Shown: in pieces, positions 5,312 through 16,467 of the stretch
Position numbering within the stretch: the first letter of the stretch is position 1
Layout: every line of letters begins with the position of its first letter
DNA from: a virus
Direction: 5' to 3' (one strand)
DNA length: 24,229 nt
IMG/VR virus record: IMGVR_UViG_3300032298_000290
Location: 1 to 24,229 of that record
The notes under the pieces: generated by a model
The model's input: only the letters and a program-made list of their open reading frames with translations
The model's database searches: none
What the model was told of the DNA's origin: nothing
Made by a program: the position numbers and the translations under genes

Positions 5312-5340
5312 GAACATATCGAATTAGTTTCGATTTGTTC
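5312..5340. repeat. 29-bp inverted repeat R1
   Basis: Left arm GAACATATCGAA, 5-nt spacer, right arm TTCGATTTGTTC, followed by G. It lies in the gap between terminator T1 and promoter P1, 84 nt upstream of the VRR-NUC start. Confidence 0.85.
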
Positions 5341-5346
5341 GTAGAC

Positions 5347-5372
5347 AAAAAAAGACCCGCACTTGGCGGGTC
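5347..5372 (-). terminator. Intrinsic terminator T1
   Basis: Read on the minus strand: stem GACCCGC, loop CAAGT, stem GCGGGTC, then seven T. It lies 25 nt beyond the stop of the 289-aa gene, closing the long leftward module and separating it from promoter P1. Confidence 0.9.
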
Positions 5373-5396
5373 GTGAATAGATACTATAAGTTGTTA

Positions 5397-6266
5397 TTAG
5401 ATAATTAAGAACACACCAGCTTTTGCTCGGAAGCCTACATTCCTAACCATCTCGTTATCCTGCATAAGTTGTAGGACTGCGATCTTGTCCTGCATGATCT
5501 GCGGTAACTCTTCGTACTCCTTGGTTACCAGTTGAACATCGGACTCCCCCTCGAGCATAGTCCTGTATGCGAACCTACCGCCTACATCAATCACAGCCAT
5601 TTTGTCAGCGCGTGATATTTCCATAGCCAGTAAGTATTTGTCCACGGCTTCGCCATACTCTTGAGACTTGAGTTTGCCGTGCGTATCAATCAACTCTTTG
5701 TTATCAAATGGTAGATTGTTAGCCATGCAGTACGCTACTAGCTGAACACTTGTGCTGTTGCGTAGTAGTTGCGAGCCGGAGATAGGGCTAGTTAGATCAC
5801 GAGCCGCGCGGTTAACCGCGAGGATTGCATCGTCATGCCCTTTGTCAAACAACTCTAGTATGTTGCGCTTCTTGAATGTTTTCTTACACTCGCGTATTGC
5901 TACATTTATCTTCTTAGTTGTAGTCGTGTTGCGTCGCCCGCGAGCCTTATCTATCCGCCAGTTTGACACGGTGTAGATAAACCCTTCGTCACCCCTACTG
6001 TCTTGGTCTACGCCGACAACACCGACCTTCTCGTTGTCTTCGTATACCGACATAGTGCGGATGTATTTGCAATCATCGGGGGCTTTGTACTTCTCTTTGG
6101 CTTTAGAGAAGTTAAAAGACACGTCGTACTCGAACTCACTAACCTGCTTCGGTTGAACGAATACAAGTTTCGGGTTAAGCATTACTAGCTTATCGATTAG
6201 CGCCTTGAGGCGTGGGTCAACCAACACTTTCGGGTCGGTCATACGAATGTTTACAAATGCAGTCAT
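5397..6266 (-). CDS. 289-aa unknown phage protein
   Basis: Starts MTAFVNIRMTDPKVLVDPRL with AAGGAAG before the ATG, overlapping the upstream stop as ATGA. The first 130 residues alternate beta-like stretches (EFEYDVSFNF, EKVGVVGVDQ, EGFIYTVSNWRI) with a basic segment (KARGRRNTTTTKKINVAIRECKKTFKKR). The second half is helical and includes KLKSQEYGEAVDKYLLAMEI. No catalytic motif, signal peptide or known family is recognised. It is the last gene before terminator T1, at the end of the unit that also carries the AAA+ and VWA genes, so a role alongside that module is possible but unproven. Confidence 0.75.
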   Translation of the reverse strand: MTAFVNIRMTDPKVLVDPRLKALIDKLVMLNPKLVFVQPKQVSEFEYDVSFNFSKAKEKYKAPDDCKYIRTMSVYEDNEKVGVVGVDQDSRGDEGFIYTVSNWRIDKARGRRNTTTTKKINVAIRECKKTFKKRNILELFDKGHDDAILAVNRAARDLTSPISGSQLLRNSTSVQLVAYCMANNLPFDNKELIDTHGKLKSQEYGEAVDKYLLAMEISRADKMAVIDVGGRFAYRTMLEGESDVQLVTKEYEELPQIMQDKIAVLQLMQDNEMVRNVGFRAKAGVFLII

Positions 6267-6436
6267 GCTTCTTCCTTTACTTCTTTTAGGTCATACACCT
6301 CCATCTCACCACTTGCGCTATCCCCCATAGGGTTAGCCTCGGCATACATCAACAGTTCGGCTTCCTGTTCTGTGTCAGCCAGCACCGTGATTTCTTCTTG
6401 GTATGTAGTTACTACTACGCCTTTCCATGTTTTCAT
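6263..6436 (-). CDS. 57-aa unknown protein
   Basis: A short frame starting MKTWKGVVVTTYQEEITVLA and ending LKEVKEEA. AAGGA lies 7 nt before the ATG, and the stop overlaps the next start as ATGA, which makes it a credible coupled cistron. It looks like a beta strand pair followed by an acidic helix (DTEQEAELLMYAEANP); the TEQEAE pattern recurs as TQAEAE in the 57-aa protein at 13260-13433, which has a similar fold order. Function unknown. Confidence 0.75.
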   Translation of the reverse strand: MKTWKGVVVTTYQEEITVLADTEQEAELLMYAEANPMGDSASGEMEVYDLKEVKEEA

Positions 6437-6445
6437 ATAGATTCC

Positions 6446-7321
6446 TTACCAATTAAATTTACTAATGATCTCGTCCACGCTAGACTTCAACTCTTGACGA
6501 GCACTCGGTATCTTGCGTAGGTCTTCGGGGTCGATGCCCAACACCGTATGCTCTAGCATACGTCTCGCTTTCTCCAGCTCTGGGTCCTTGGTTACATTCA
6601 AACGCGTAAGTAGGTCGCACAAGCCTACGGCGTTGTTGACGATAGAGTCGCGGAAGATTTTGCGCTTGCCATCTGGCGAGTCCGTCAATGTATCGCTCAT
6701 CTTTGTGAGTAACTCATGCAGTCTCTCCCACGGGTCACGCATCGCTTCGGCTAACTTGTCGTTGTACATCTTCTCGTACTGATCGGCTAGGTCTTGGCGT
6801 ACGCGGTCCTCGCATTGCAAGCGGAAGTCCCCTTTCTCTGGAACAGGGAGAAAGTTAGCGACAAACTTGAAACGGCGTGGCAGAGACTCCGCAGTTGGAA
6901 ACTCTGACGCATCGAAATACTTACCTAGTTTGAACGCTTGTGCGTTGACTAGCGTAGGGTAAGCCGTGATGAATTCATCGACTAACTTGTAGAAGTTGTT
7001 CTCCATCGTACCCAGTTGCTCACGATATGAGAAGAAGTTCTCCATCGGTAGCAAGCCAACGCCTTTCATCCAAGGCAAAGTCTGTGTGCCATTCCATGCA
7101 CGGCATTTGGCGGCGTACTTCTCGATCTTGTCGAGGTGATCACTGCCCGCCATGAGGTACTTGTAGACAGAGCTCGCGTCTTGCGACGCTTCCTTCGCTG
7201 TATTCAGATCAGCAGTTGTCTCCTTGTCACGCTTACGCGCAGTCCAAGTGCTGATGCGTAGTTCAACTAGCATAGCCATTGACGATAATGAAACCGGTGG
7301 TGCAATCATAATATTAGACAT
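6446..7321 (-). CDS. DUF3150-like phage protein
   Basis: A 291-aa protein starting MSNIMIAPPVSLSSMAMLVEL; the start has GGAGA 7 nt upstream, while an in-frame TTG four codons earlier has none. The segments LRISTWTARKRDKE, TLPWMKGVGLLPMENFF, PTLVNAQAFKLGKYFDASEFP and KIFRDSIVNNAVGLCDLL resemble, from memory, a conserved phage family usually labelled DUF3150. Proteins of this type are found beside MoxR/CobS-like ATPases and VWA proteins in other phages, and both are present here 2-5 kb upstream. It is mostly helical and probably cytoplasmic. The activity is unknown; it may be a substrate or adaptor of the AAA+ and VWA pair (inference). Confidence 0.7.
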   Translation of the reverse strand: MSNIMIAPPVSLSSMAMLVELRISTWTARKRDKETTADLNTAKEASQDASSVYKYLMAGSDHLDKIEKYAAKCRAWNGTQTLPWMKGVGLLPMENFFSYREQLGTMENNFYKLVDEFITAYPTLVNAQAFKLGKYFDASEFPTAESLPRRFKFVANFLPVPEKGDFRLQCEDRVRQDLADQYEKMYNDKLAEAMRDPWERLHELLTKMSDTLTDSPDGKRKIFRDSIVNNAVGLCDLLTRLNVTKDPELEKARRMLEHTVLGIDPEDLRKIPSARQELKSSVDEIISKFNW

Positions 7322-7343
7322 ATATTTCTCCAAGATAGGTTGG

Positions 7344-8402
7344 TTATGAACTTATCGAATTTGATTCGCTTTGTTCGCTTAGGGCAGGCTCCGTTACATA
7401 GTGCCTGTTGCTCTTAGATGGGACAACTCCCTCCTCTAGTTGCTCTTCGATGAATACCTCATCCGCATACACGACGCAGATCAGTTCTTCAATATAGTTA
7501 GTCAAGTCATCGCCCTTGAACGATAGTGTGTAGATGGGTGACATGTTGTGTCGGTACTCGTGCTGTTGTGTGCCACCCTGTCTGAGTAACACATACAAAG
7601 CCCACGACCAATCCTCGGTTGGCTCAGTCCCCGAAATCCATTCAAGTAATCGTTCCGCGCTTTGCTTGTGGCTCCAATGCTTACCGTACCTATGCTTGCG
7701 AGGCAGGGGTAGTTCGTCAAGTGTGCACATGTCGTAGTTGAACTCTTTACGAAACGGGTCGTCGTAACTAAGGTTGCTGTAATGTTTACGATACTGCTCG
7801 TCGTACCAAGCCGATGGTCTGTATCCGCACGCCACACGCAATCTGTTGTGAGCAGACTCAGTCTCATCCTTGAACTCACTCTGTTTGTTATCAATAGACA
7901 TGACTAAGGCTACCCAATCTATGAATGGTTGATACTTCGCCATGATCTTCTTCGTGATTCTGGGACGCTTACGATAGTTGTATTCTTTAGGATAGGATTC
8001 CAAGTCGTACCCTGTTGTCCTCATGACGAACTTCAACGACCCGCGTTTCTCTAAGACAATACTCTTACCAACATCGCTCAGTCTCACAATCAAACGCCCT
8101 TTGTTCCACTGAAAGAACAGAGGGTTAGGCAGGTAGTTGTGTAGCGTGTGCACAGTAAACCCCGAGTAGTGGTGCGGGGCGTTCAGCGTGAACCCACCTA
8201 TCGCGTGCCACACCACGAGAGGTTGTCCGAGATAGTTGAGTTGCACATCACCTGTCGTCCCATCGTATGAGATAGAAGCAGATGGGTGATGACGGCGTAT
8301 ACCGAGTGGGCGCACAGTCTTACCGCGTATTGGTGCTACGCTGTTGTGGTGTGCTAACGCTTCGTCATAGTTAGCAAGTGGTTGTATTCCAAATGTATTC
8401 AT
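7344..8402 (-). CDS. 352-aa unknown phage protein
   Basis: The start MNTFGIQPLANYDEAL has AGGAA 9 nt upstream and resembles the N-terminus of a phage family I recall but cannot name. A second possible start at 8435 (MFDITSKEFYY) has a better-spaced AGGAA and lies inside inverted repeat R3, so the start is uncertain by 11 codons. The first third looks beta-rich (ASISYDGTTGDVQLNYLG, GRLIVRLSDVGKSIVLEKRG); the rest is rich in Tyr, Arg and His. No catalytic motif was found. The last ten residues (EQSESNSISS) are encoded by inverted repeat R2, an unusual case of a repeated DNA element forming a protein end. Confidence 0.75.
   Translation of the reverse strand: MNTFGIQPLANYDEALAHHNSVAPIRGKTVRPLGIRRHHPSASISYDGTTGDVQLNYLGQPLVVWHAIGGFTLNAPHHYSGFTVHTLHNYLPNPLFFQWNKGRLIVRLSDVGKSIVLEKRGSLKFVMRTTGYDLESYPKEYNYRKRPRITKKIMAKYQPFIDWVALVMSIDNKQSEFKDETESAHNRLRVACGYRPSAWYDEQYRKHYSNLSYDDPFRKEFNYDMCTLDELPLPRKHRYGKHWSHKQSAERLLEWISGTEPTEDWSWALYVLLRQGGTQQHEYRHNMSPIYTLSFKGDDLTNYIEELICVVYADEVFIEEQLEEGVVPSKSNRHYVTEPALSEQSESNSISS
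7348..7376. repeat. 29-bp inverted repeat R2
   Basis: Left arm GAACTTATCGAA, 5-nt spacer, right arm TTCGCTTTGTTC, followed by G. It encodes the last residues of the 352-aa protein and ends 26 nt upstream of the DUF3150-like start codon. Confidence 0.85.
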
Positions 8403-8429
8403 ATAATAAAATTCCTTACTGGTTATGTC

Positions 8430-8458
8430 GAACATATCGAATTCCTTTCGTTTAGTTC
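8430..8458. repeat. 29-bp inverted repeat R3
   Basis: Left arm GAACATATCGAA, 5-nt spacer, right arm TTCGTTTAGTTC, followed by G. It covers the stop codon of the 53-aa ribbon-helix-helix-like gene and lies 27 nt upstream of the chosen start of the 352-aa gene. On the minus strand its spacer supplies an AGGAA ribosome-binding site. Confidence 0.85.
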
Positions 8459-8613
8459 GTTTCGTTGAAGAAGACTGCGATCAGGTGGCGCACCACTTGT
8501 CCGTTAGTCGGCTCGAACCCTAGCCTGTCGACGAGGGCAGTCTTGACCTCTTGAAGCAGGTCATATGTTTCTTTGTTAAGGGCTACTGAGTAGCCTTGCG
8601 TTGGCTTCATCAT
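8452..8613 (-). CDS. 53-aa ribbon-helix-helix-like DNA-binding candidate
   Basis: Starts MMKPTQGYSVALNKETYDLL with AGGAG 8 nt upstream; the ATG overlaps the upstream stop (ATGA). The order is one beta strand (GYSVALN), a helix (KETYDLLQEVKTALVDRLG), a turn with Asn and Gly (PTNG), and a second helix (QVVRHLIAVFFNET). This length and order match the Arc/CopG/MetJ ribbon-helix-helix fold, whose dimers bind palindromic operators through the strand. Its stop codon lies within inverted repeat R3, so it could bind the repeat family and regulate itself (inference). Similarity is structural; no close named homologue is recognised. Confidence 0.65.
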   Translation of the reverse strand: MMKPTQGYSVALNKETYDLLQEVKTALVDRLGFEPTNGQVVRHLIAVFFNETN

Positions 8614-8855
8614 TTCTTAGTCTCCTTCTCAATAGCTTTTTCATTTGCATCAAGCTCCATGCGAAAGATGCCTGTCATTGGCGTGATGAAACACGACTCA
8701 TTGTTTGGCTTCTCCACGCAAGTAACCGACCCATCCCTGAGCCACTTACTACCGATGCGTTGACACGAGTTAAGAACCTTGGCTATCTCCATAGCCTCGG
8801 ACACGCTGAGTAGAAACTTATTGCTACCCACATTCAAGATTACTTCTTCATCCAT
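8610..8855 (-). CDS. 81-aa unknown protein
   Basis: Starts MDEEVILNVGSNKFLLSVSE with AGGAGAAAG before the ATG and overlaps the upstream gene by 8 nt. A beta pair (VILNVGSNKFLLSV) leads to a helix (SEAMEIAKVLNSC) and further short strands (GSVTCVEKP, SCFITPMTGIFRMEL), then a charged Lys/Glu-rich end. The helix after the strand pair resembles small phage proteins of unknown role. No motif gives a function. Confidence 0.7.
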   Translation of the reverse strand: MDEEVILNVGSNKFLLSVSEAMEIAKVLNSCQRIGSKWLRDGSVTCVEKPNNESCFITPMTGIFRMELDANEKAIEKETKK

Positions 8856-9258
8856 TTCTTTCTCCTAATACAAGGAACCACCCGACTAACGGGCTGTCGT
8901 TACTACAATAGACTTCGTATGGGAAGCCGTGAAAAATAAAACTACCAATCGTTGACCCCACACGGAAGCCGTCGTTGCCCTCAGCTTGGGCTACGCCCGC
9001 GCAGTAATCCCACAACTTCTGAAAGCCCTCGACCGTGTCGAACTTAGGTAAACCAAGATCGAACCGCGCTTTGGCAATCACATGGAAGTGGTCATACATG
9101 TTGTGTGTATAAGCCGTTGGGTCTAACTCCTTGATAAGCGCCATGCCCGCAGGGTTCAAGCGCATCGCAAAGTTAGTCTGCCCCACCGTGCAAAGAGTAT
9201 TTGCATGATGAATGCGTTCAACCATTGGGTCGCTATCGGATAACAAGTTTCTGTCCAT
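8848..9258 (-). CDS. 136-aa unknown protein
   Basis: The start MDRNLLSDSDPMVERIHHAN has GAGG 6 nt upstream and overlaps the end of the VWA gene by 26 nt. A longer frame further upstream lies entirely over the VWA coding sequence and is rejected. The protein is mixed alpha/beta with aromatic-rich motifs (YTHNMYDHFHVIAKARFDLGL, STIGSFIFHGFPYEVY, SPLVGWFLVLGE). No family or active site is recognised. It lies directly downstream of the VWA protein and is probably co-translated with it. Confidence 0.7.
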   Translation of the reverse strand: MDRNLLSDSDPMVERIHHANTLCTVGQTNFAMRLNPAGMALIKELDPTAYTHNMYDHFHVIAKARFDLGLPKFDTVEGFQKLWDYCAGVAQAEGNDGFRVGSTIGSFIFHGFPYEVYCSNDSPLVGWFLVLGERNG

Positions 9259-10510
9259 TGGGGACCTCGTACTTGTCATTACCGAGAATGCACCACAGGG
9301 TAGGCGCTTTGATAGCCGCCCACTTCTGCTTGTTGGTGTGCATATGCCCATCCGACAGCATGATGAGTGCATCGGGGGTCATGCGTTTCTCTTGCATGAA
9401 GTCCACCACTACATCGGGGTCAGTACCACCGCCACCCTTGGGGTTAGTCTGATGCACAATGTTTTTGGTGTTACCTTTGTATGTCTCATGTCCGGCTACC
9501 TCGGCGTCCCAGTAGATAACATCGACACGATCGGCGCCCACGCTTGCCAGACAACCATTCATCTCTGATAGGAAGTCGGTCAAGAGCTGCCCCTGAATCG
9601 AACCTGATGTGTCCATACCGATGACAAGCCACTTCATGCGCTTACCCAATATGCTTGGGAGAATCACGTCCTGCCATAAGAAGTTCTTATGCGCCTTACG
9701 CCATGATGCGGAGTCCCGATCTTTGAGTGAAGTACGCACGAACCGTTGCAAGACTGCACGCCAATCAATCTTTGGCTTGAGCAGTTCACCGATCTCGCGT
9801 GACATAGTCCCGCCGACCTTGCCCGCGTAGATACCACCTTGGCGTAATACTTGGTCAATATCACGCTCGAGTTGTTTCTTCTCATCCTCGGACATACCGC
9901 TCTTGGCATCTTCCCATTCGTGCTCGTCGAGAGTCGGGAACTTTCCGAAACCTTTTCGTTTTGTTCCGTTGCCACCCTCGTCGCTGTCCTTGTCACCGCT
10001 CGGACCGTCACCCTCGTCACCATCCTCGCCCTCGTCGCCACCCTCCTCCATGAGAATGTCGAACACCTGCTTCGCGTCCATGCCACGGAAGCGCTCATCA
10101 AAGCAACCGATGCGATCGCCCGACTTCTTGTCGCGGGGAAACGCAAGACAAGTCTCGTCAGGGTCCATGTCATGTAGTTGTATGTTGATAACAAAGTCAC
10201 ACGCGTTGTTAGCTATGCCCGCGTTGACTTCCCACAACTTACGCCATGTAGTCAGGTGACGATAGCACTTGTGCATGTTCTCGTGCATGATGAGGAAAGC
10301 CAATTCTTTATCTGTGAGAGAGTCCACAAAGGTGCGACCATACTTAGCGTCGCGCCCGTTGGTGCTCGCTGTGTAATGTTCACTCTCTACGATAGTGATC
10401 TTGCCTACCATGAATAGACCAGCGAACAACGCGAACTTGGGGTCACGCATCAAACTCACATGGACTACCTCTATCCGCTTCTCAGCGGGAAGTCTTGCTT
10501 TAACTAGCAT
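9233..10510 (-). CDS. VWA protein with metallopeptidase-like N-terminus (DUF2201/CobT-like)
   Basis: A 425-aa protein with two recognisable parts. The N-terminal part has a zinc-binding HENMH motif at residues 76-80 (LIMHENMHKCYRH), as in DUF2201 putative metallopeptidases. A very acidic Gly/Asp/Glu linker covers about residues 155-183. The C-terminal VWA domain has a MIDAS site: Asp300-Thr-Ser302-Gly-Ser304, Thr363 in GGGGTDPD, and Asp387 in IMLSDGH. VWA proteins of this kind work with MoxR/CobS AAA+ ATPases, and one is encoded at 11082-12158. A perfect AAGGAGGT site precedes the ATG. Inverted repeat R4 encodes residues about 182-191, just after the linker. Confidence 0.88.
   Translation of the reverse strand: MLVKARLPAEKRIEVVHVSLMRDPKFALFAGLFMVGKITIVESEHYTASTNGRDAKYGRTFVDSLTDKELAFLIMHENMHKCYRHLTTWRKLWEVNAGIANNACDFVINIQLHDMDPDETCLAFPRDKKSGDRIGCFDERFRGMDAKQVFDILMEEGGDEGEDGDEGDGPSGDKDSDEGGNGTKRKGFGKFPTLDEHEWEDAKSGMSEDEKKQLERDIDQVLRQGGIYAGKVGGTMSREIGELLKPKIDWRAVLQRFVRTSLKDRDSASWRKAHKNFLWQDVILPSILGKRMKWLVIGMDTSGSIQGQLLTDFLSEMNGCLASVGADRVDVIYWDAEVAGHETYKGNTKNIVHQTNPKGGGGTDPDVVVDFMQEKRMTPDALIMLSDGHMHTNKQKWAAIKAPTLWCILGNDKYEVPNGQKLVIR
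9938..9966. repeat. 29-bp inverted repeat R4 (degenerate, intragenic)
   Basis: Left arm GAACTTTCCGAA, 5-nt spacer, right arm TTCGTTTTGTTC, followed by C rather than G. It keeps the spacing and both CGAA/TTCG cores but has the weakest left arm. It lies inside the VWA coding sequence, in a different reading phase from R2 and R5. Confidence 0.6.
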
Positions 10511-10682
10511 TTTGTACCTCCTTGTACTCTGTGATTAACCTATTACGCAACTCTTCGTCTTCAAGTAACGCTTGAACAAAGCGTCTACCCATCTGCGAAT
10601 CATGCTTGAATCTAAGAGCGTAGCCCGTGGCTATGATCGCCCACGCGAACAACGCTATCTCTGTTATAGATACTTCAATCAT
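10500..10682 (-). CDS. 60-aa membrane-anchored micro-protein
   Basis: The second of two adjacent ATGs (MIEVSITEIALFAW) is 5 nt after GGAGA and overlaps the upstream stop as TGATG. Residues 4-22 form a hydrophobic helix (ITEIALFAWAIIATGYAL), followed by a positively charged RFKHDSQMGRRF segment and a charged helix (LLEDEELRNRLITEYKEVQ). This is the layout of a single-pass protein with a cytoplasmic tail. It overlaps the VWA start by 11 nt. A role in tethering the AAA+ and VWA machinery to the membrane is possible but only inferred from the neighbourhood. Confidence 0.7.
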   Translation of the reverse strand: MIEVSITEIALFAWAIIATGYALRFKHDSQMGRRFVQALLEDEELRNRLITEYKEVQNAS

Positions 10683-10777
10683 CATGGTCTCCAAATAGTT
10701 ATATCTAACACCAATACGATGAACCCTAAGACTAGGGCGATCGCAACTATCCAACTAATGTCATAGTTCTTCTTCAT
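10682..10777 (-). CDS. 31-aa single-pass membrane micro-protein
   Basis: A 31-residue frame, MKKNYDISWIVAIALVLGFI at the start and TIWRP at the end. Almost all of residues 8-27 are hydrophobic, a transmembrane helix with a positive N-terminus. AGGG lies 7 nt before the ATG; the start overlaps the upstream stop (ATGA) and the stop overlaps the next start (TGATG), so it sits in a tight translational chain. It and the 60-aa neighbour form a tandem pair of membrane micro-proteins between the ATPase and VWA genes. Confidence 0.65.
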   Translation of the reverse strand: MKKNYDISWIVAIALVLGFIVLVLDITIWRP

Positions 10778-11079
10778 GGTCTTACCCTTCCTCTAGTAAG
10801 GCGTAGCGCAAACACCTCCATGTCATGCGCCTCATCGTTCATATCAATCATGCGTAGGTTGTCAGCCAAGCGCATACTGTGGTGATAGATGCGTTCACGA
10901 ATGTCAGCATCCATTTCGATCTCGGAATTTATCGAATCCAATTCGATTTGTTCGTCCTCGTCCTCTTCGGTAGGTTCGTCTACCTCGATGTTAAGAATGC
11001 GAGCGCCCTCGAATATCTCGACGACTTCGTACTCCGCACCGATGCGATCTAATACATCGTATAGTTCGTTAGGTGTCAT
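10774..11079 (-). CDS. 101-aa acidic protein of unknown function
   Basis: Starts MTPNELYDVLDRIGAEYEVV with AAGG 8 nt upstream, 2 nt after the ATPase stop. The N-terminal half looks alpha/beta (YEVVEIFEGARILNIEVDEP); the middle is a strongly acidic stretch (EEDEDEQIELDS) encoded in part by inverted repeat R5; the C-terminal half is helical (MRLADNLRMIDMNDEAHDME). No family is recognised. The acidic middle between two folded parts may mark a tolerated insertion of the repeat. Confidence 0.65.
   Translation of the reverse strand: MTPNELYDVLDRIGAEYEVVEIFEGARILNIEVDEPTEEDEDEQIELDSINSEIEMDADIRERIYHHSMRLADNLRMIDMNDEAHDMEVFALRLTRGRVRP
10925..10953. repeat. 29-bp inverted repeat R5 (intragenic)
   Basis: Left arm GAATTTATCGAA, 5-nt spacer, right arm TTCGATTTGTTC, followed by G. 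It lies inside the 101-aa gene and encodes EQIELDSINS, in the same reading phase as R2 (EQSESNSISS). Confidence 0.8.
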
Positions 11080-11081
11080 GA

Positions 11082-12158
11082 TTAGCCTTTCAATCCTGCG
11101 AACATGTACTGGTTCTCGCGAGCCCATGTCACGAACGACGGATGCGCCATAGCCCACTGCTTCTTAGCGCTGATCTCTAAGAGAGAATTGATAAACACGG
11201 CTTGCGTTTCTTTAGGCATACGCTTGATGTAGCGCAACCAAGTAGCGAAAGACTCGCGGGTACACACCATCACACCCTTGAAAGCAAGAATACAAAGAGC
11301 CGCAGGGCTAGTTGGTATCGGTGCTGTATCAGGCGATGACTCGATGGACTCACGCGTTGGGAGCTGGTCCGACAACGAGATGTATGCTTGCAAATCACGA
11401 GACGCAGATATGCCAATGGTGCCGTCCAGCGCACAGATCAACGAGTTCTCTGATATGTTGTGACGCACATTGACCCAATGCGATGCCTTGAACGCAGAGC
11501 GAGGCGAGAAGAACGCAGTCTGACTCGCGTCCGTTGGGTTGAAGATGTACGGATTCTCTTTCTGCCCACCGTCCATGTACGACGCCATGCTGTGCGGATA
11601 CTCCTTGACCCACGCTTGAATCTCAGGTGCCACGCCCGCGTTGCCCGCCCACACTAGCCACTCGTCGGCAGTTGGCTTCATGTAAGTCATCCATGTCTGA
11701 CGATTACGAGTATGCGCCTTCGCGGAATCACCGACACCATCGGCATCGTTGTTACCAGTAGTGAAGACAATCGACTCAGGGTGCAGTCGGAACTCACCAA
11801 GCCTACGCTCGTGTAGCAATGGGTGTAGCGTATTGCGTACATAGTCATCGGTCTTAGTCCACTCGTCGATCATGATTACGCATGGCTCGTTGGTGTGCAG
11901 ACGATACGCGTTGGCAGGGTAGAAGTCCAAGGTGCGCGTCGTATGATTGGGAATAGGCATACCCGCTTGACCCACATCGGTGTTAGGTCCGTCGATATAC
12001 ACCTTGTGAAACCCAGTCTTCGCTACGATCACATCTTGGATCGCGGTTTTACCAACACCCGGTTCTCCAGTAAGGTGTATTGAGTTATGCCCGCTGTTGA
12101 TAAGCAAGTCCACCGCTTCGTGGAAGTTGATACGGCGGTTAAAAGATAATTCTGACAT
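11082..12158 (-). CDS. MoxR/CobS-like AAA+ ATPase
   Basis: A 358-aa AAA+ ATPase. Walker A is GEPGVGKT at residues 31-38, Walker B is VIMIDE at 94-99, a sensor-1 Asn lies in VFTTGNND (about 131-138), and an arginine pair in HTRNR (149-153) suits the arginine finger. The single AAA+ core followed by a C-terminal helical part matches the MoxR/CobS group, which remodels partner proteins with the help of a VWA subunit. That partner is probably the VWA protein at 9233-10510. The start has AGGAA 8 nt upstream, and repeat R6 lies 32 nt upstream of it. Annotated CobS-like genes are known in many phages; their role there is not established. Confidence 0.88.
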   Translation of the reverse strand: MSELSFNRRINFHEAVDLLINSGHNSIHLTGEPGVGKTAIQDVIVAKTGFHKVYIDGPNTDVGQAGMPIPNHTTRTLDFYPANAYRLHTNEPCVIMIDEWTKTDDYVRNTLHPLLHERRLGEFRLHPESIVFTTGNNDADGVGDSAKAHTRNRQTWMTYMKPTADEWLVWAGNAGVAPEIQAWVKEYPHSMASYMDGGQKENPYIFNPTDASQTAFFSPRSAFKASHWVNVRHNISENSLICALDGTIGISASRDLQAYISLSDQLPTRESIESSPDTAPIPTSPAALCILAFKGVMVCTRESFATWLRYIKRMPKETQAVFINSLLEISAKKQWAMAHPSFVTWARENQYMFAGLKG

Positions 12159-12190
12159 TTGGTTTTTCCTAGATAAGTGAGGATGAAAAA

Positions 12191-12219
12191 GAACAAAACG
12201 AATTGAATTCGATTAGTTC
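12191..12219. repeat. 29-bp inverted repeat R6
   Basis: Left arm GAACAAAACGAA, 5-nt spacer, right arm TTCGATTAGTTC, followed by G. It overlaps the stop codon of the CxxC protein and lies 32 nt upstream of the AAA+ ATPase start. Confidence 0.85.
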
Positions 12220-12497
12220 GAACGGGTGTTTTTCTGATTCGTGTCGAGCAAAGTCTGTGGTGCAGACTCCACCGTTACGAGCATATACGGACCCTTGCCG
12301 TATGGTTGCACCACGCACCAAGAGGCACGCTCGGCAAGTGCGGAATCTTCCCCGCACATCATGCAGAGTTTGAAACCTAAGTTCCAACGCTCCACGCGTA
12401 CATCGTCACCGCAGTGAACACACGCACGCCAGTCGAAATTAGTTGAGGGCGCTGCGCCTACAACATCATCGTATTCTTGTACTTTCTGAGTAAACAT
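12213..12497 (-). CDS. 94-aa zinc-ribbon-like phage protein (two CxxC pairs)
   Basis: Starts MFTQKVQEYDDVVGAAPSTN with an ideal AAGGAGGT site. Two cysteine pairs, CVHCGDD and CMMCGED about 17 residues later, with a basic RVERWNLGF loop between, form a classic four-cysteine zinc ribbon. The C-terminal half (YMLVTVESAPQTLL) looks beta-rich. Proteins of this type recur in phages (recalled, not checked), with no known role. It is the first gene behind promoter P2 and repeat R7, and its last codons lie in repeat R6. Confidence 0.75.
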   Translation of the reverse strand: MFTQKVQEYDDVVGAAPSTNFDWRACVHCGDDVRVERWNLGFKLCMMCGEDSALAERASWCVVQPYGKGPYMLVTVESAPQTLLDTNQKNTRSN

Positions 12498-12514
12498 AAT
12501 CTACCTCCTTGATT

Positions 12515-12543
12515 GAACAAATCGAACTGGATTCGATAAGTTC
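12515..12543. repeat. 29-bp inverted repeat R7
   Basis: Left arm GAACAAATCGAA, 5-nt spacer, right arm TTCGATAAGTTC, followed by G. It lies in the leader between promoter P2 and the CxxC gene, 17 nt upstream of the start. It matches R8 at 27 of 29 positions. Confidence 0.9.
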
Positions 12544-12566
12544 GGTTAACTATCGTTGTCATTTAA

Positions 12567-12584
12567 AATCTACTAAAGTAGATT
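12567..12584. promoter_or_regulatory. Operator-like palindrome O2 on promoter P2
   Basis: Perfect inverted repeat, minus strand AATCTACT-TT-AGTAGATT. It overlaps the last bases of the P2 -10 box and covers the expected transcription start, a classic place for a repressor to block polymerase. The identical sequence lies on promoter P3. Confidence 0.75.
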
Positions 12585-12610
12585 ATAGCATACATATTAG
12601 ACTTTGTCAA
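12582..12610 (-). promoter_or_regulatory. Consensus sigma-70 promoter P2
   Basis: On the minus strand: -35 TTGACA (12610-12605), 17-nt spacer, -10 TATAAT (12587-12582), a perfect consensus. It overlaps the end of the 104-aa gene and reads toward the CxxC gene and the AAA+/VWA module. Confidence 0.9.
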
Positions 12611-12911
12611 GTCCTTGTTCGCGTTTTGCCCGCTGTGTTCGCGTATTCAAAACTTTGATCATGGCTTCCTGCACATCCTTCGGCGCCCGCTCTGCAAACT
12701 CGTCGAATATGTCCAACTTTGGTGTGTAGGAATGATCTTTAACCCGATATGCAACGATTAGCCCGCCATTGGCACGGCTGGCTCTGCTTAACATAGATGT
12801 ATACATAAGCACCATGTCATCGGCTTGCTCTTTGGTATCGCAGATAGACTGCGGTTCCCAACGGCTAGGCACGGTCTTGAATTTGATAAGGCGTTCTACT
12901 GTGTAACTCAT
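12597..12911 (-). CDS. 104-aa unknown protein
   Basis: The start MSYTVERLIKFKTVPSRWEP has AAGGA 7 nt upstream and overlaps the upstream stop as ATGA. The N-terminal half looks like a small alpha/beta domain (IKFKTVPSRW, DTKEQADDMVLMYTSML, GLIVAYRVKDH); the C-terminal part is helical and basic (NTRTQRAKREQGLDKV). Those last codons overlap promoter P2, and a related sequence in a different frame lies over promoter P3, showing that the promoter and this gene end were copied together. Function unknown. Confidence 0.7.
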   Translation of the reverse strand: MSYTVERLIKFKTVPSRWEPQSICDTKEQADDMVLMYTSMLSRASRANGGLIVAYRVKDHSYTPKLDIFDEFAERAPKDVQEAMIKVLNTRTQRAKREQGLDKV

Positions 12912-13144
12912 ACTTGTTCCTTCCATGCGCTCATCCATTGCTCGAGCGTTGGTTTCTGTGGGGTGTTGGTGAAATGAGCCTCGGCTTTGGCTATGTCTTG
13001 GCAAAATACGACGTACTTCTTACGCAAAGCAACTAACTGCCTTGTGGTCAATGTCTCGTCGAGCATCCTGCTGAGTATGAGCGCGTCTCCCTTTTGCTTG
13101 GCGTTGTATAAAGCAAGCAATGCTTGTTGATTGTCTTGTGTCAT
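12908..13144 (-). CDS. 78-aa helical protein of unknown function
   Basis: Starts MTQDNQQALLALYNAKQKGD with AAAGGA before the ATG and overlaps the upstream stop as ATGA. It is predicted all-helical, with Leu-rich helices (ALLALYNAKQ, ALILSRMLDETLTTRQLVALRKKY) and an aromatic end (QWMSAWKEQV). No family is recognised. It is part of the chain of micro-genes behind promoter P3, all joined by 4-nt overlaps. Confidence 0.7.
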   Translation of the reverse strand: MTQDNQQALLALYNAKQKGDALILSRMLDETLTTRQLVALRKKYVVFCQDIAKAEAHFTNTPQKPTLEQWMSAWKEQV

Positions 13145-13263
13145 GTGCGTTCCTTTCGCTGTTGTTTAAGAATACGAACCCAGTCAATCCGTGATAAGAA
13201 CCAACGGTAGAGTGGGGTTGAGCAGTCTTGGCAGAGCAAGACTTCGTTGTCACCTTTCTTCAT
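13141..13263 (-). CDS. 40-aa micro-protein with CxxC
   Basis: Starts MKKGDNEVLLCQDCSTPLYR and ends RKERT. An AAGGAGA ribosome-binding site precedes the ATG and both ends overlap neighbouring genes by 4 nt (ATGA), strong signs of a real cistron. A single CQDC motif is followed by a basic, aromatic helix (YRWFLSRIDWVRILKQQ). One CxxC alone could bind a metal only in a dimer. Function unknown. Confidence 0.7.
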   Translation of the reverse strand: MKKGDNEVLLCQDCSTPLYRWFLSRIDWVRILKQQRKERT

Positions 13264-13433
13264 GCTGTCTCCTTAGTTTGTATAACTTGCCAATCACCCT
13301 GCCGGATAGCCTTGGATAAATCACCCCCAAATCTCGGGTGTGCATCAACAAAGTGTTCTGCCTCTGCCTGAGTATCAAACTCATACACCTTGCGCCAATC
13401 ACCGTGTTGAAAAACAATAAGTGTGAACTTCAT
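13260..13433 (-). CDS. 57-aa alpha/beta unknown protein
   Basis: The start MKFTLIVFQHGDWRKVYEFD has AGGGG upstream. The order is strand (KFTLIVF), strand (WRKVYEF), helix (TQAEAEHFVDAHP), then strand (WQVIQT), a small ferredoxin-like half. The helix pattern is close to that of the 57-aa protein at 6263-6436. The stop overlaps the next start as ATGA. Function unknown. Confidence 0.7.
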   Translation of the reverse strand: MKFTLIVFQHGDWRKVYEFDTQAEAEHFVDAHPRFGGDLSKAIRQGDWQVIQTKETA

Positions 13434-13443
13434 GTGCATCCCC

Positions 13444-13611
13444 TTAGTGCAACTCGAAGGCTGAGTCGTCGCCGTCATAGAACCAGTCGGTGTAGGAATA
13501 GATACTTCCCGAGACTGAGGTGTGCGAGCCGTGCATCTGCTCGGATTCTTCTTCATACTCCGCTTCCTCCAATGAAACAAAGCGGGCGGTGTTACTCATA
13601 TCAACTCTCAT
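13444..13611 (-). CDS. 55-aa acidic Tyr/Ser-rich protein
   Basis: The start MRVDMSNTARFVSLEEAEYE has GGAGA about 5 nt upstream. An upstream in-frame extension exists but reads through inverted repeat R8 and has no ribosome-binding site, so it is rejected. The product is very acidic (EEAEYEEESEQ) with a Ser/Tyr-rich second half (SVSGSIYSYTDWFYDGDDS), likely poorly ordered. Small acidic early phage proteins can mimic DNA or bind host enzymes, but nothing proves that here. It is the first gene behind promoter P3. Confidence 0.6.
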   Translation of the reverse strand: MRVDMSNTARFVSLEEAEYEEESEQMHGSHTSVSGSIYSYTDWFYDGDDSAFELH

Positions 13612-13642
13612 AATGATCTCCAATATAGGATTTAAGGTTACC

Positions 13643-13671
13643 GAACAAATCGAAATGAATTCGATAAGTTC
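13643..13671. repeat. 29-bp inverted repeat R8
   Basis: Left arm GAACAAATCGAA, 5-nt spacer, right arm TTCGATAAGTTC, followed by G. It lies between promoter P3 and the first gene of its operon, 31 nt upstream of the start codon. Confidence 0.9.
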
Positions 13672-13715
13672 GGCGGACATAGTAGTTAGTTAGTATTGCT
13701 TCGCTCTACCATCCA

Positions 13716-13733
13716 ATCTACTAAAGTAGATTA
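13716..13733. promoter_or_regulatory. Operator-like palindrome O3 on promoter P3
   Basis: Same perfect 18-bp inverted repeat as at promoter P2 (AATCTACT-TT-AGTAGATT on the minus strand), again overlapping the -10 box and the expected start site. Confidence 0.75.
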
Positions 13734-13759
13734 TAGCATACTAATTAGACTTTGTCAAT
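13731..13759 (-). promoter_or_regulatory. Consensus sigma-70 promoter P3
   Basis: On the minus strand: -35 TTGACA (13759-13754), 17-nt spacer, -10 TATAAT (13736-13731). Over the -35, spacer, -10 and operator it matches P2 at 42 of 44 positions. It drives the micro-gene chain from 13611 down. Confidence 0.9.
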
Positions 13760-13772
13760 AGCGTGTTCGCGT

Positions 13773-14450
13773 TTACGGGGCTGTGTTCGAGCTTTTGGAT
13801 TTACCTATTGCATCAAAGAGTTTGCTAGTAAATACGTCAAAGTCCTCATCCTCCACCACGGGTTTGCTCGCTTCTTCCGCTTCGCGCTTCTGTTTCTCCA
13901 CCAATGAGCGCATCACGAGCACGGGCTTGGAGTTCTCCTCTGTGCGTGGCACCTCTTCACCCTTGTGATGTATATGGGAGAGCCCGACAAACCTACGATT
14001 CTTGAGCCCCATGCAGTCATAGCCCGCTTCGCCCGCTGACTGAGCAAGCAGATCAGTAAACACGGGGTTCTTGGGTTTCAGCGCATGGAGTGTTGCTTCG
14101 TCCGGCGCAATCAAATGCCTGTGGGAATCTTGCTCGGGCAGATCATCGAATGGCAGAACTTGCTTGCGTCGCTTCTCCATGAATGGTTTGGCTTCGCGAT
14201 GATGCCACGGGTTGACGCAGAACTCAGTTGTGCACCAGCGGGTAATGCGTGATGAAGCGGGCGGGAATTTGATAATGGTGAATAGGATGCGAGCGATTGA
14301 GGTTGTCGCGAATTGCTTCGCCAGCGGTGAGTTGGCGGTAAGTATTGGGGCTAACGAGTTGGATGTGTTGGGCCAAACGAAACAGTAACCTCGGATTGAA
14401 CAGTTCTCAAGAAGGGTATCAGCATCACGGTATTTGACGGGGCGGGACAT
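13773..14450 (-). CDS. 225-aa phage protein with CVNPxH (HNH-like) motif
   Basis: Starts MSRPVKYRDADTLLENCSIR; AAGG lies 9 nt upstream, in the leader of promoter P4. The region RITRWCTTEFCVNPWHHRE (residues 68-86) holds Cys73, Cys78 and His83-His84, which resembles the zinc-binding C-x4-CxNPxH segment of some HNH nucleases. The N-terminal part (GYCFVWPNTSNSLAPIL) and SIARILFTIIKF suit a DNA-binding fold. Residues 165-225 are charged and probably disordered. I recall similar unnamed proteins from phages of Burkholderiales. It may be a regulator or an HNH-derived protein; activity is uncertain because a full HNH set of residues is not evident. Confidence 0.75.
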   Translation of the reverse strand: MSRPVKYRDADTLLENCSIRGYCFVWPNTSNSLAPILTANSPLAKQFATTSIARILFTIIKFPPASSRITRWCTTEFCVNPWHHREAKPFMEKRRKQVLPFDDLPEQDSHRHLIAPDEATLHALKPKNPVFTDLLAQSAGEAGYDCMGLKNRRFVGLSHIHHKGEEVPRTEENSKPVLVMRSLVEKQKREAEEASKPVVEDEDFDVFTSKLFDAIGKSKSSNTAP

Positions 14451-14511
14451 GGTTTGTAGCCTTTCTATAATAGATAAAAAACAGTCAAAATTTATATAAC
14501 TGGGTGTTAAC

Positions 14512-14539
14512 ATTATAGAATAAAAGCGGGCTTTGTCAA
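14512..14539 (-). promoter_or_regulatory. Sigma-70 promoter P4
   Basis: On the minus strand: -35 TTGACA (14539-14534), 16-nt spacer, -10 TATAAT (14517-14512). It shares GCTATTGACAAAG with the P3 region but lacks the 18-bp operator. It drives the CVNPxH gene about 60 nt downstream. Confidence 0.85.
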
Positions 14540-14908
14540 TAGCCATGCGGGTTTGAGGGTAATTATATATTCTATGTTCTATATACTCGTGCAAACGAAG
14601 TATTGTGAGAGAGGGAGAAATAAAGTTGGGGAAGTTGGGTGAAGCCTTGCCCGCCTGATCTCTCTAAACCAAAAAAATTTGGGGTTCCTTCTCTCTCTCT
14701 CTCAATCACAAATATATTATATATATATTATAAAATAGAAAAGAAGAAAGAAGAAAAGCCAATGCTGGCGCGGGTTTAGGTCTTTTGGCAGTGCCTTTAT
14801 TCTATAAGATTAGGTATGAGTTATATATTTTCACCCTCCGATTTTGCGGACCTGCTATATAACTCGGTGCTTCCCCACTCTGTGGGGTATGCCTATTATA
14901 TAACAAGT

Positions 14909-14930
14909 AGCGTTTTAACAACGCTTTTTT
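14909..14930 (+). terminator. Rightward intrinsic terminator without an upstream gene
   Basis: Plus strand stem AGCGTT, loop TTAAC, stem AACGCT, then five or six T. No rightward gene lies upstream, so it may end a small non-coding RNA. Confidence 0.6.
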
Positions 14931-14995
14931 AGACTATCTTCGCACTTGGCGAGGCGGGCGAGGCGTCTGCCGCCTCCAAAAAGTAATACTAAATA

Positions 14996-15024
14996 GAACA
15001 AATCGAATAAGTTTCGCTTTGTTC
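14996..15024. repeat. 29-bp inverted repeat R9
   Basis: Left arm GAACAAATCGAA, 5-nt spacer, right arm TTCGCTTTGTTC, followed by G. It lies in the gene-poor region, between terminator T2 and promoter P4, and is the only copy far (about 550 nt) from the next start. Confidence 0.9.
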
Positions 15025-15215
15025 GCTTTGCCAGCCATGCCGGGGCATCGTTAAGCCTAGCCCGTTTCTACAGAATTGGGAGATTAGCCCGCCACGCGAA
15101 CACAGACTAGCCCGTTACGAACTACGCCGTTGCGGGAACTGGTTTCGCTCACTTGTCGTTCGCTCAGAATACGGAAACCAATACGGGAACTGGCATCGCG
15201 CGGGCGGCGCGAGCC

Positions 15216-15250
15216 AAAAAAACCGCCCGCCACGCTTTCGCGTGGCGGGC
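15216..15250 (-). terminator. Intrinsic terminator T2
   Basis: Read on the minus strand: perfect 11-bp stem GCCCGCCACGC, loop GAAA, GCGTGGCGGGC, then GG and seven T. It follows the 105-aa gene by 13 nt. A GAAA tetraloop on an 11-bp GC-rich stem makes it very strong. Confidence 0.95.
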
Positions 15251-15263
15251 AGAGCGGGCAGAG

Positions 15264-15581
15264 TTAATCCGCACGCGTACCAACATAGGCTTTGATGCCG
15301 TGTGAATTCAGGACATCCGCGTAAGCGCGAGCGCCCGCTTCTTTCAAGTCCATGCTTTGCGTATGCGAGCCCGCAGGATTCCACAACTGCAGACCGCTCG
15401 CGCCATACATCGGGCTAAACCCAACTTTTTTCATGTCGCGCCCCAATTTGGTGTTGCCGGACACGACCGCACGAACCCACGCGAACCCGCAGAACATGGG
15501 CTCGCCATGCTTAGCAAGAAACGCGGCTTCCGCAGATTTCGCGGCTTGTAATGCTTCAAGGTGAATTGCAAAAATATCCAT
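15264..15581 (-). CDS. 105-aa conserved phage protein of unknown function
   Basis: Starts MDIFAIHLEALQAAKSAEAA with AGGAAA before the ATG. The segments KHGEPMFCGFAWVRAVVSGN, KLGRDMKKVGFSPMYG, GLQLWNPAGSHTQSMDLKEA and ARAYADVLNSHGIKAYVGTRAD resemble a compact alpha/beta family I recall from many phages of Proteobacteria, always without known function. It stands alone between terminators T3 and T2, with repeat R10 62 nt upstream, so it forms its own transcription unit or is fed by read-through. Confidence 0.75.
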   Translation of the reverse strand: MDIFAIHLEALQAAKSAEAAFLAKHGEPMFCGFAWVRAVVSGNTKLGRDMKKVGFSPMYGASGLQLWNPAGSHTQSMDLKEAGARAYADVLNSHGIKAYVGTRAD

Positions 15582-15611
15582 GATGATTTTCCTAATAGAA
15601 AGAAAAGAAAG

Positions 15612-15641
15612 AAAAACCCGCCATGCTCATAACATGGCGGG
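15612..15641 (-). terminator. Intrinsic terminator T3
   Basis: Read on the minus strand: stem CCCGCCATG, 7-nt loop, stem CATGGCGGG, then five T. It lies 24 nt beyond the stop of the 242-aa gene and directly after repeat R10. Confidence 0.9.
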
Positions 15642-15643
15642 CA

Positions 15644-15672
15644 GAACAAAACGAATTGAATTCGTTTATTTC
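15644..15672. repeat. 29-bp inverted repeat R10
   Basis: Left arm GAACAAAACGAA, 5-nt spacer, right arm TTCGTTTATTTC, followed by G. It covers the stop codon of the 242-aa gene and lies next to terminator T3. Its outer right base pair departs from consensus. Confidence 0.8.
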
Positions 15673-16394
15673 GTCATCGCAAGTAAACCCGCGATCAGCA
15701 ACTCGTCAGCGTCAGCAGTGCCAGCCTTGCACAACTCGCGGGCGCGGGCAACGATCGCGTCACGCGTAACCGCGCGGGCTTTTTGTGCTTCATCCTCTGC
15801 GGGCTTTTCGCGACGCTTGACTTCGTCGTTAATCTCTTTTACGAGACTCAGCGACTTATTGTCACCCTTCGCAAGTAACTCGGCTTTTTTCTCGACCAAC
15901 GCACCGGTGGACTCAGGCGCGTATTTCTCGACCAACTTAGCCCGCTTTTCAGCCATGCGCTTCGCGTCTTTATCGTCAGACTTCGGGCGCGTGTAGCCCG
16001 CTTCAGTAGCCAACTCTTTGATCGCATCCTCCCAGACTTTTTCAGCCGCAGGAATTGAGACTGCGCCCGCGTCATATGCCGCACCCACATAGAACCCGCG
16101 AATGATTTTAAAATCGTCATACTTGATTGGTATGATTTTCTTAGGGGTTAACTCATGATCTTCAGGGAAACGCATGACTTTGCCCTCAGCGTCTAATTGT
16201 GCGATCCAACCAAGAAGGTTAGCATTCAAACGCTCTAACTCGCCTTTGGACTTGACGATCTTTGCCGTCTCTTTTTGTGACGCGAAACCGATTTCTTTGA
16301 TCGTCGCTTCCACAGTAGCGATCGCAACACCATTGATTGATTCAACAGCGGGCAGGGTTTCCGCAATAGCGGAATTGATTTCAGTTTTTTGCAT
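15666..16394 (-). CDS. 242-aa helical protein of unknown function
   Basis: The start MQKTEINSAIAETLPAVESI has GGAGA 8 nt upstream; a longer frame runs back through repeat R11 but has no ribosome-binding site. The protein is mostly helical: an N-terminal Ala-rich part (residues 1-60), a short beta part (PKKIIPIKYDDFKIIRGFYV), and a long charged Lys/Glu/Ala-rich coiled-coil-like second half (DDKDAKRMAEKRAKLVEKY, KRREKPAEDEAQKARA). It is the first leftward gene after the divergent control region, so it is probably expressed very early. No family is recognised. Confidence 0.75.
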   Translation of the reverse strand: MQKTEINSAIAETLPAVESINGVAIATVEATIKEIGFASQKETAKIVKSKGELERLNANLLGWIAQLDAEGKVMRFPEDHELTPKKIIPIKYDDFKIIRGFYVGAAYDAGAVSIPAAEKVWEDAIKELATEAGYTRPKSDDKDAKRMAEKRAKLVEKYAPESTGALVEKKAELLAKGDNKSLSLVKEINDEVKRREKPAEDEAQKARAVTRDAIVARARELCKAGTADADELLIAGLLAMTK

Positions 16395-16438
16395 TTGATG
16401 TTCTCCAAATAAATGTAGAAATTGGCAATAGCGCCACC

Positions 16439-16467
16439 GAACAAACCGAACTGATTTCGATTTGTTC
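16439..16467. repeat. 29-bp inverted repeat R11
   Basis: Left arm GAACAAACCGAA, 5-nt spacer, right arm TTCGATTTGTTC, followed by G. It lies 44 nt upstream of the start of the first leftward gene and is the rightmost copy in the window. Confidence 0.9.

Follow-up and report, generated by a model that had tools for sequence, protein, structure and literature searches.

A duplicated and probably doubly controlled early promoter in a group of uncultured bacterial viruses

Gene layout and two near-identical promoters

IMGVR_UViG_3300032298_000290, a complete IMG/VR record with a length of 24,229 bases that is classed as linear and probably a fragment, was analysed in full here (the window, also G000; G001 to G015 are further viral contigs compared). 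The early genes, among them those for a DNA polymerase, a VWA protein and a MoxR-like ATPase, run leftward, and from 16803 onward the late genes (terminase, portal) point rightward. A near-identity search of 50,697 phage records returned no near match for the window, and the best cultured relatives of the MoxR-like ATPase, many of them N4-like, are less than 26% identical. The virus is one of a poorly known group of uncultured viruses of bacteria that lacks a close cultured member. Outside the region of interest, a sigma-70 region 4 protein is encoded at 300-902 on the minus strand (Pfam E 1.2e-14); in the close relatives G001 and G004 only short end pieces match there, which suggests that the gene was inserted or lost in particular lineages.

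The genes considered here all lie on the minus strand. A gene for a 225-aa protein (13773..14450) stands just upstream of promoter P3, with its TAA stop inside the promoter cassette, and a 54-aa gene (13444..13608) lies downstream of P3. A 104-aa open reading frame (12597..12911; 113 aa from an earlier ATG) has its last codons over the half-sites, -35 box and spacer of promoter P2, downstream of which is a 94-aa zinc-ribbon-like gene (12213..12497).

P2 (12567..12610, minus strand) consists of a TTGACA -35 box at 12610-12605, a 17-nt spacer and a TATAAT -10 box at 12587-12582, the last overlapped by the palindromic operator AATCTACTTTAGTAGATT at 12584-12567. P3 (13715..13758, minus strand) is built in the same way, with TTGACA at 13758-13753, a 17-nt spacer, TATAAT at 13735-13730 and the operator AATCTACTTTAGTAGATT at 13732-13715. 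The original prediction had called the two near-identical, and we found that they indeed match at 42 of 44 bases from the -35 box through the operator, against 24 of 44 for the next best 44-mer of the minus strand. A longer ungapped match covers 75 nt at 85% identity, at a spacing of 1,148 bp. P1 (14511..14539, minus strand), the sigma70-like promoter of the 225-aa gene, provides an internal contrast: its -35 and -10 boxes are similar to those of P2 and P3, but it has neither the operator palindrome nor the pair of half-sites. The other promoters of these phages likewise have neither element, among them one additional TTGACAAAGTCTAA promoter in each of G001 and G004, and a scan of the window, the contigs and the relatives yielded no third complete cassette.

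For the comparison, seven more viral contigs were retrieved with a pattern for the -10 box plus operator, further contigs (including L092, L104, L107 and L118) with a pattern for the -35 box plus spacer, and loci L146-L167 by a protein search with the 225-aa family. The other matches to the -35/spacer pattern (L093-L121 except L104, L107 and L118) were mostly unrelated promoters without half-sites or operator and were set aside. With the near-duplicates G006 (of G007) and G013 (of G012) dropped from the counts, the set comprises 29 cassettes in 22 non-redundant viral contigs, seven of which carry two. G004 shows P2 only, as this contig begins between the P3 and P2 sites. Nearly all of the L146-L167 loci have one cassette, directly behind the 225-aa gene (the L167 stretch stops short of the site).

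In all cassettes the operator palindrome keeps a constant offset from the -35 box and sits over the predicted start site. Its sequence varies (among others AATCTACTTTAGTAGATT, AATCTACCTTGGTAGATT, AATGTACCTTGGTACATT, AATATACCTTGGTATATT and AATGTACGAAGTACATT) and its symmetry is retained, as the arms change together: CTACT..AGTAG, CTACC..GGTAG, GTACC..GGTAC, ATACC..GGTAT and ATGTAC..GTACAT all occur. Such paired change is what would be expected from selection for a symmetric protein site. The promoter-operator pattern was found in four bacterial genome records from unrelated phyla, about as often as by chance, which gives no sign of a host operator.

Upstream half-sites and dispersed dyads

The similarity between P2 and P3 continues upstream of the -35 box. 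It was originally read as the end of a coding region that had travelled with the promoter or, failing this, as a frameshift by which the gene over P3 had lost a longer ending. The peptides behind this reading are there: RTQRAKREQGLDKV over P2 and RTQPRKREHAIDKV over P3, each followed by a stop, so that RTQ..KRE..(L/I)DKV can be read over both copies, and the C-terminal peptides of the P2 upstream frames in G000, G001, G003 and G004 are closely similar. Across the 29 cassettes, however, what is conserved upstream is a layout of GAAC, 16 bases, GAAC, 6 bases and the -35 box. At P2 (12617..12640, minus strand) the half-sites lie at 12640-12637 and 12620-12617, 20 bp start to start, and the geometry is the same at P3 (13765..13788, minus strand; 13788-13785 and 13768-13765). 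The 20-bp spacing is constant, apart from 21 bp in G002, and the second half-site starts 10 bp before the -35 box. Only the cassette of L160 lacks clean half-sites: they are degenerate there, with the operator kept. Information content reaches 1.4-2 bits per half-site position and is mostly low in between, with no codon rhythm.

Genes with unrelated ends cross this conserved DNA in different frames, and the half-sites are kept beside them. The frame crossing P2 stops at GTCTAA in G000, G001, G003 and G004, at the TGA within TTGACA in G002, G005 and G010, and upstream of these places in G006/G007; in G000-G004, open reading frames that are partly unrelated share a short C-terminal tail that is mostly translated cassette. 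In G003 P3, G012 and G010 P2 the LDKV frame is closed or missing. As for the 225-aa gene, its relatives have their own stop, in frame, at or near the same place (NTAP followed by TAA in the nearest), 17 bases before the -35 box (-17) in most A/B contigs and at -14 to -43 in others. Because the frames differ, the LDKV frame is interrupted and the 225-aa gene has its own stop, we conclude that no coding end moved and that no frameshift occurred at P3, and we regard both forms of the coding explanation as highly improbable. The upstream similarity of P2 and P3 is, as judged from these alignments, a cis element of two half-sites. A conserved "C-terminal peptide" over a promoter may thus be merely a translated regulatory site, a caution that applies to similar cases.

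Each promoter is followed by a 29-bp dyad: R7, GAACAAATCGAACTGGATTCGATAAGTTC (12515..12543), between P2 and the 94-aa gene, and R8, GAACAAATCGAAATGAATTCGATAAGTTC (13643..13671), between P3 and the 54-aa gene. The reported likeness of the two (27 of 29 identical) and their order behind the promoters hold, with the dyads slightly closer than the stated 45-60 nt: operator and dyad are separated by 23 nt at P2 and by 43 nt at P3, and the likely start lies roughly 33 and 52 nt from the dyad, respectively. R7 and R8 are two of 11 symmetric 29-bp dyads in the window, a family that spans 5312..16467 with members beginning at 5312, 7348, 8430, 9938, 10925, 12191, 12515, 13643, 14996, 15644 and 16439. 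All are in the early half, over about 11 kb, and none is in the late plus-strand genes; when the window and each of nine relatives were shuffled 60 times under a first-order Markov model, the pattern never appeared. The dyads at 9938-9966 and 10925-10953 are within coding sequence, and several relatives have dyads at the same place of the VWA gene. After the first dyad comes a sigma70-like promoter, at about 5277 on the minus strand, without operator or half-sites and with a conserved GTGTTTCCCCTAATAAAATA upstream in G001/G004.

The dyads come in dialects, with outer/inner arms of GAAC/CGAA, GAAC/CGAC, GGAC/CGAC, and GGAA or GGAG/CGAC, and the three outer-arm states (GAAC, GGAC, GGAA/GGAG) occur in both half-sites and dyads. 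Half-sites agree with the outer-arm consensus of the dyads of their own contig at 91% of letters, compared with 75% when contigs are shuffled; none of 20,000 shuffles reached 91%, a figure that shared ancestry inflates and that is therefore descriptive. At the variable second base, 55 of 58 half-sites carry the letter of the dyad outer arm. This covariation suggests that one regulator may read half-sites and dyads alike.

Many dyads stand just 5′ of ribosome-binding sites, where palindrome and dyads could act as RNA hairpins in 5′ leaders, affecting stability, processing or translation. We consider this quite unlikely, since the palindrome straddles the start site and is half untranscribed, other dyads are inside genes or upstream of another promoter, and positions 5-6 of the dyad arms are often unpaired. 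Furthermore, the matching half-sites are upstream of the -35 box and so outside the transcript, which, together with the intragenic dyads, makes binding to DNA likelier than RNA structure.

Ancestral and derived copies of the cassette

Behind the 225-aa gene, at the P3 site, a cassette is found in nearly all relatives. P2 has orthologues in G001-G007 and G010. The outgroups G011, G012 and L146-L166 have no cassette in front of the 94-aa gene, and no dyad at the P2 site either. In nine outgroups the gene preceding the 94-aa gene overlaps its start by 4 nt (ATGA), and this preceding gene is homologous (E down to 6e-8) to the gene before P2 in G005, G007 and G010, where it has an extra tail, partly encoded by the cassette, and is followed by cassette and dyad. 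From the absence in outgroups, the overlapping junction and the homologue with its cassette-encoded tail, P3 is, on this comparison, the ancestral site and P2 a derived insertion. The ancestor of G000-G010 gained a second cassette, accompanied by its own dyad, between the 94-aa gene and the gene upstream of it, and the overlapping stop-start junction of most outgroups gave way to a separate, predicted transcription start. The gene before P2 was later replaced in G000-G004. As the leaders between operator and dyad are dissimilar at P2 and P3, the dyad may have arrived separately from the promoter.

The presence of orthologues at both sites in several contigs bears out the central claim, that of a true duplication of a promoter-operator cassette, with a dyad of its own at the P2 copy. 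Relatives in which the two promoter regions are unrelated were looked for and none was found. A consensus of -35 and -10 boxes does recur in unrelated phages, so that P2 and P3 might have converged independently on strong sigma70 promoters; yet the match extends to spacer, operator and upstream elements, shared non-consensus positions included, several contigs have orthologues of both copies, and comparison with the outgroups shows P2 to be an insertion. We give convergence next to no credence, and P2 and P3 are, on the strength of these alignments, quite likely paralogues derived from a single early-promoter cassette. This unit, about 75 bp long, has two direct half-sites upstream, a near-consensus sigma70 promoter and a palindromic operator centred on the predicted start site.

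Across the seven contigs, the likeness of P2 and P3 is somewhat greater within a genome than under random pairing (p = 0.04 for the core, p = 0.003 upstream), which suggests occasional gene conversion between the two. Close relatives differ strongly in the genes that separate P3 from P2 and in the bodies of the open reading frames before P2. One example of this mosaic gene content is a SEADWILEDL..RWAMFYAEHGHE protein (L124, L126), which lies within the P2 upstream frame in G001 and is a separate open reading frame in G002.

A similar organisation is known from the PeSLs, reportedly described by Arbiol et al. in 2010 as mobile regulatory cassettes of T4-type phages. A PeSL is a small early-promoter unit associated with a stem-loop, several copies of which bound variable gene modules. 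The likeness of P2 and P3 might accordingly be kept mainly as homology for gene shuffling, as with the PeSLs, with regulation secondary. Both the variable genes and the same-genome likeness would fit this explanation, but the compensated operator changes and the covariation of half-sites with dyads indicate sequence-specific selection beyond plain homology; we hold a mainly recombinational role to be possible though rather unlikely, and the two roles are mutually compatible. The cassettes resemble PeSLs as an early-promoter unit in more than one copy with variable open reading frames in between. They differ in having a palindromic operator that straddles the start site, with no separate stem-loop belonging to the cassette, in half-sites that covary with dispersed dyads, and in numbering only two per genome; moreover, the window has no near match among the 50,697 phage records, and the best cultured relatives of its MoxR-like ATPase are distant and in many cases N4-like.

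Candidate regulators and a proposed mechanism

Dispersed binding sites for one regulator have been described in other phages. The stoperators of Cluster A mycobacteriophages are asymmetric, 13 bp long and aligned with the direction of transcription, and a monomeric repressor binds them and halts elongating RNA polymerase; they are numerous, lie in promoters and between genes, and exist in genome-specific variants (PMC9283540, PMC6550527). The dyads (11 in 11 kb) also have genome-specific variants and may, with the promoter half-sites, be dispersed sites for one regulator, but they are 29 bp long and symmetric, and no prophage relative was found. In the temperate Bacillus phage SPbeta, the 15-bp SPBRE motif recurs in several promoter regions and is bound by MrpR, a phage repressor with a tyrosine-recombinase fold that descends from a DNA-processing enzyme (PMC10516654). 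Recurrence in several promoter regions is shared with our element; sequence, motif length, symmetry, architecture and regulator are not. By analogy, the cassette appears to act like a copied promoter unit (PeSL) combined with dispersed operators (stoperators, SPBRE); because defining features of PeSLs and stoperators failed where tested, we do not file it as a member of either. In more distant phages (L004, L020 and L045; L011 and L030), other short dyads (CTAACAwwTGTTAG; TTTCGTACnGTACGAAA) lie in early-gene leaders and near-identical promoters are repeated, a layout like that of P2/P3 in other sequences.

For the operator, HTH81, a Cro-like 81-aa protein encoded in G001, G004, G007, G010 and G012 (outside the window), is perhaps the repressor: its recognition-helix region is conserved and fits the conserved TAC..GTA core. 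We treat it as a lead only.

The 225-aa protein has a CxxxxCVNPxHH motif, with invariant Cys and His around CVNPxHH, and is weakly HNH-endonuclease-like. In PHROG, endonuclease/HNH was the commonest match in four of nine family members, at a weak E of about 1e-3, and nothing credible was found among Pfam and PDB sequences. Residues 10-145 are predicted confidently and include a beta-beta-alpha unit; the predicted fold has no match in PDB (best E 2.2). No match was found by tblastn in the phage collection. The family is also absent from the bacterial genomes of the species collection, which gives no hint of a prophage state. The residue before C73, which may correspond to the catalytic first-motif His of HNH enzymes, is W, M, C or R in 22 of 22 sequences and never H.

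Two candidates for the factor that sets dyad specificity were rejected. The tree of the 225-aa protein mixes dialects (G000 pairs with G003 at 66%, and G002 is at only 46%). The product of the first early gene (242 aa; 15666-16394) differs between dialects in its N-terminal third, but G007 does not fit.

An HNH-like protein as regulator has a precedent in T4, where the GIY-YIG homing endonuclease I-TevI represses its own gene by binding one operator over the promoter (PMC2988022); DNA binding by the 225-aa protein is hypothetical. That this protein has lost nuclease activity and reads half-sites and dyads as a regulator is a tentative and, in our judgement, unlikely idea. If true, these phages would carry a symmetric, stoperator-like shut-off network whose regulator is a dead nuclease, with its gene next to its own duplicated promoter.

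Our preferred reading is that P2 and P3 are probably two copies of a sigma70-type early promoter under double control, within a regulon of dispersed operators. From the palindrome over the start site and the analogy with stoperators and SPBRE, we infer the following logic. Host RNA polymerase would fire P2 and P3 early, and a dimeric repressor, perhaps HTH81, would shut them by binding the operator. Half-sites and dyads would be bound by another protein of the phage, which would join both promoters in one regulon and would probably slow or stop transcription of the early block, shut-off being the simplest form.

These viruses offer a natural series: a promoter cassette was copied, the copy entered a gene junction and has been retained, and binding sites of two kinds vary in sequence together. 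The specificity of phage regulators may thus be read from sequence alone, and the series provides concrete, testable operators in a group without a close cultured member.
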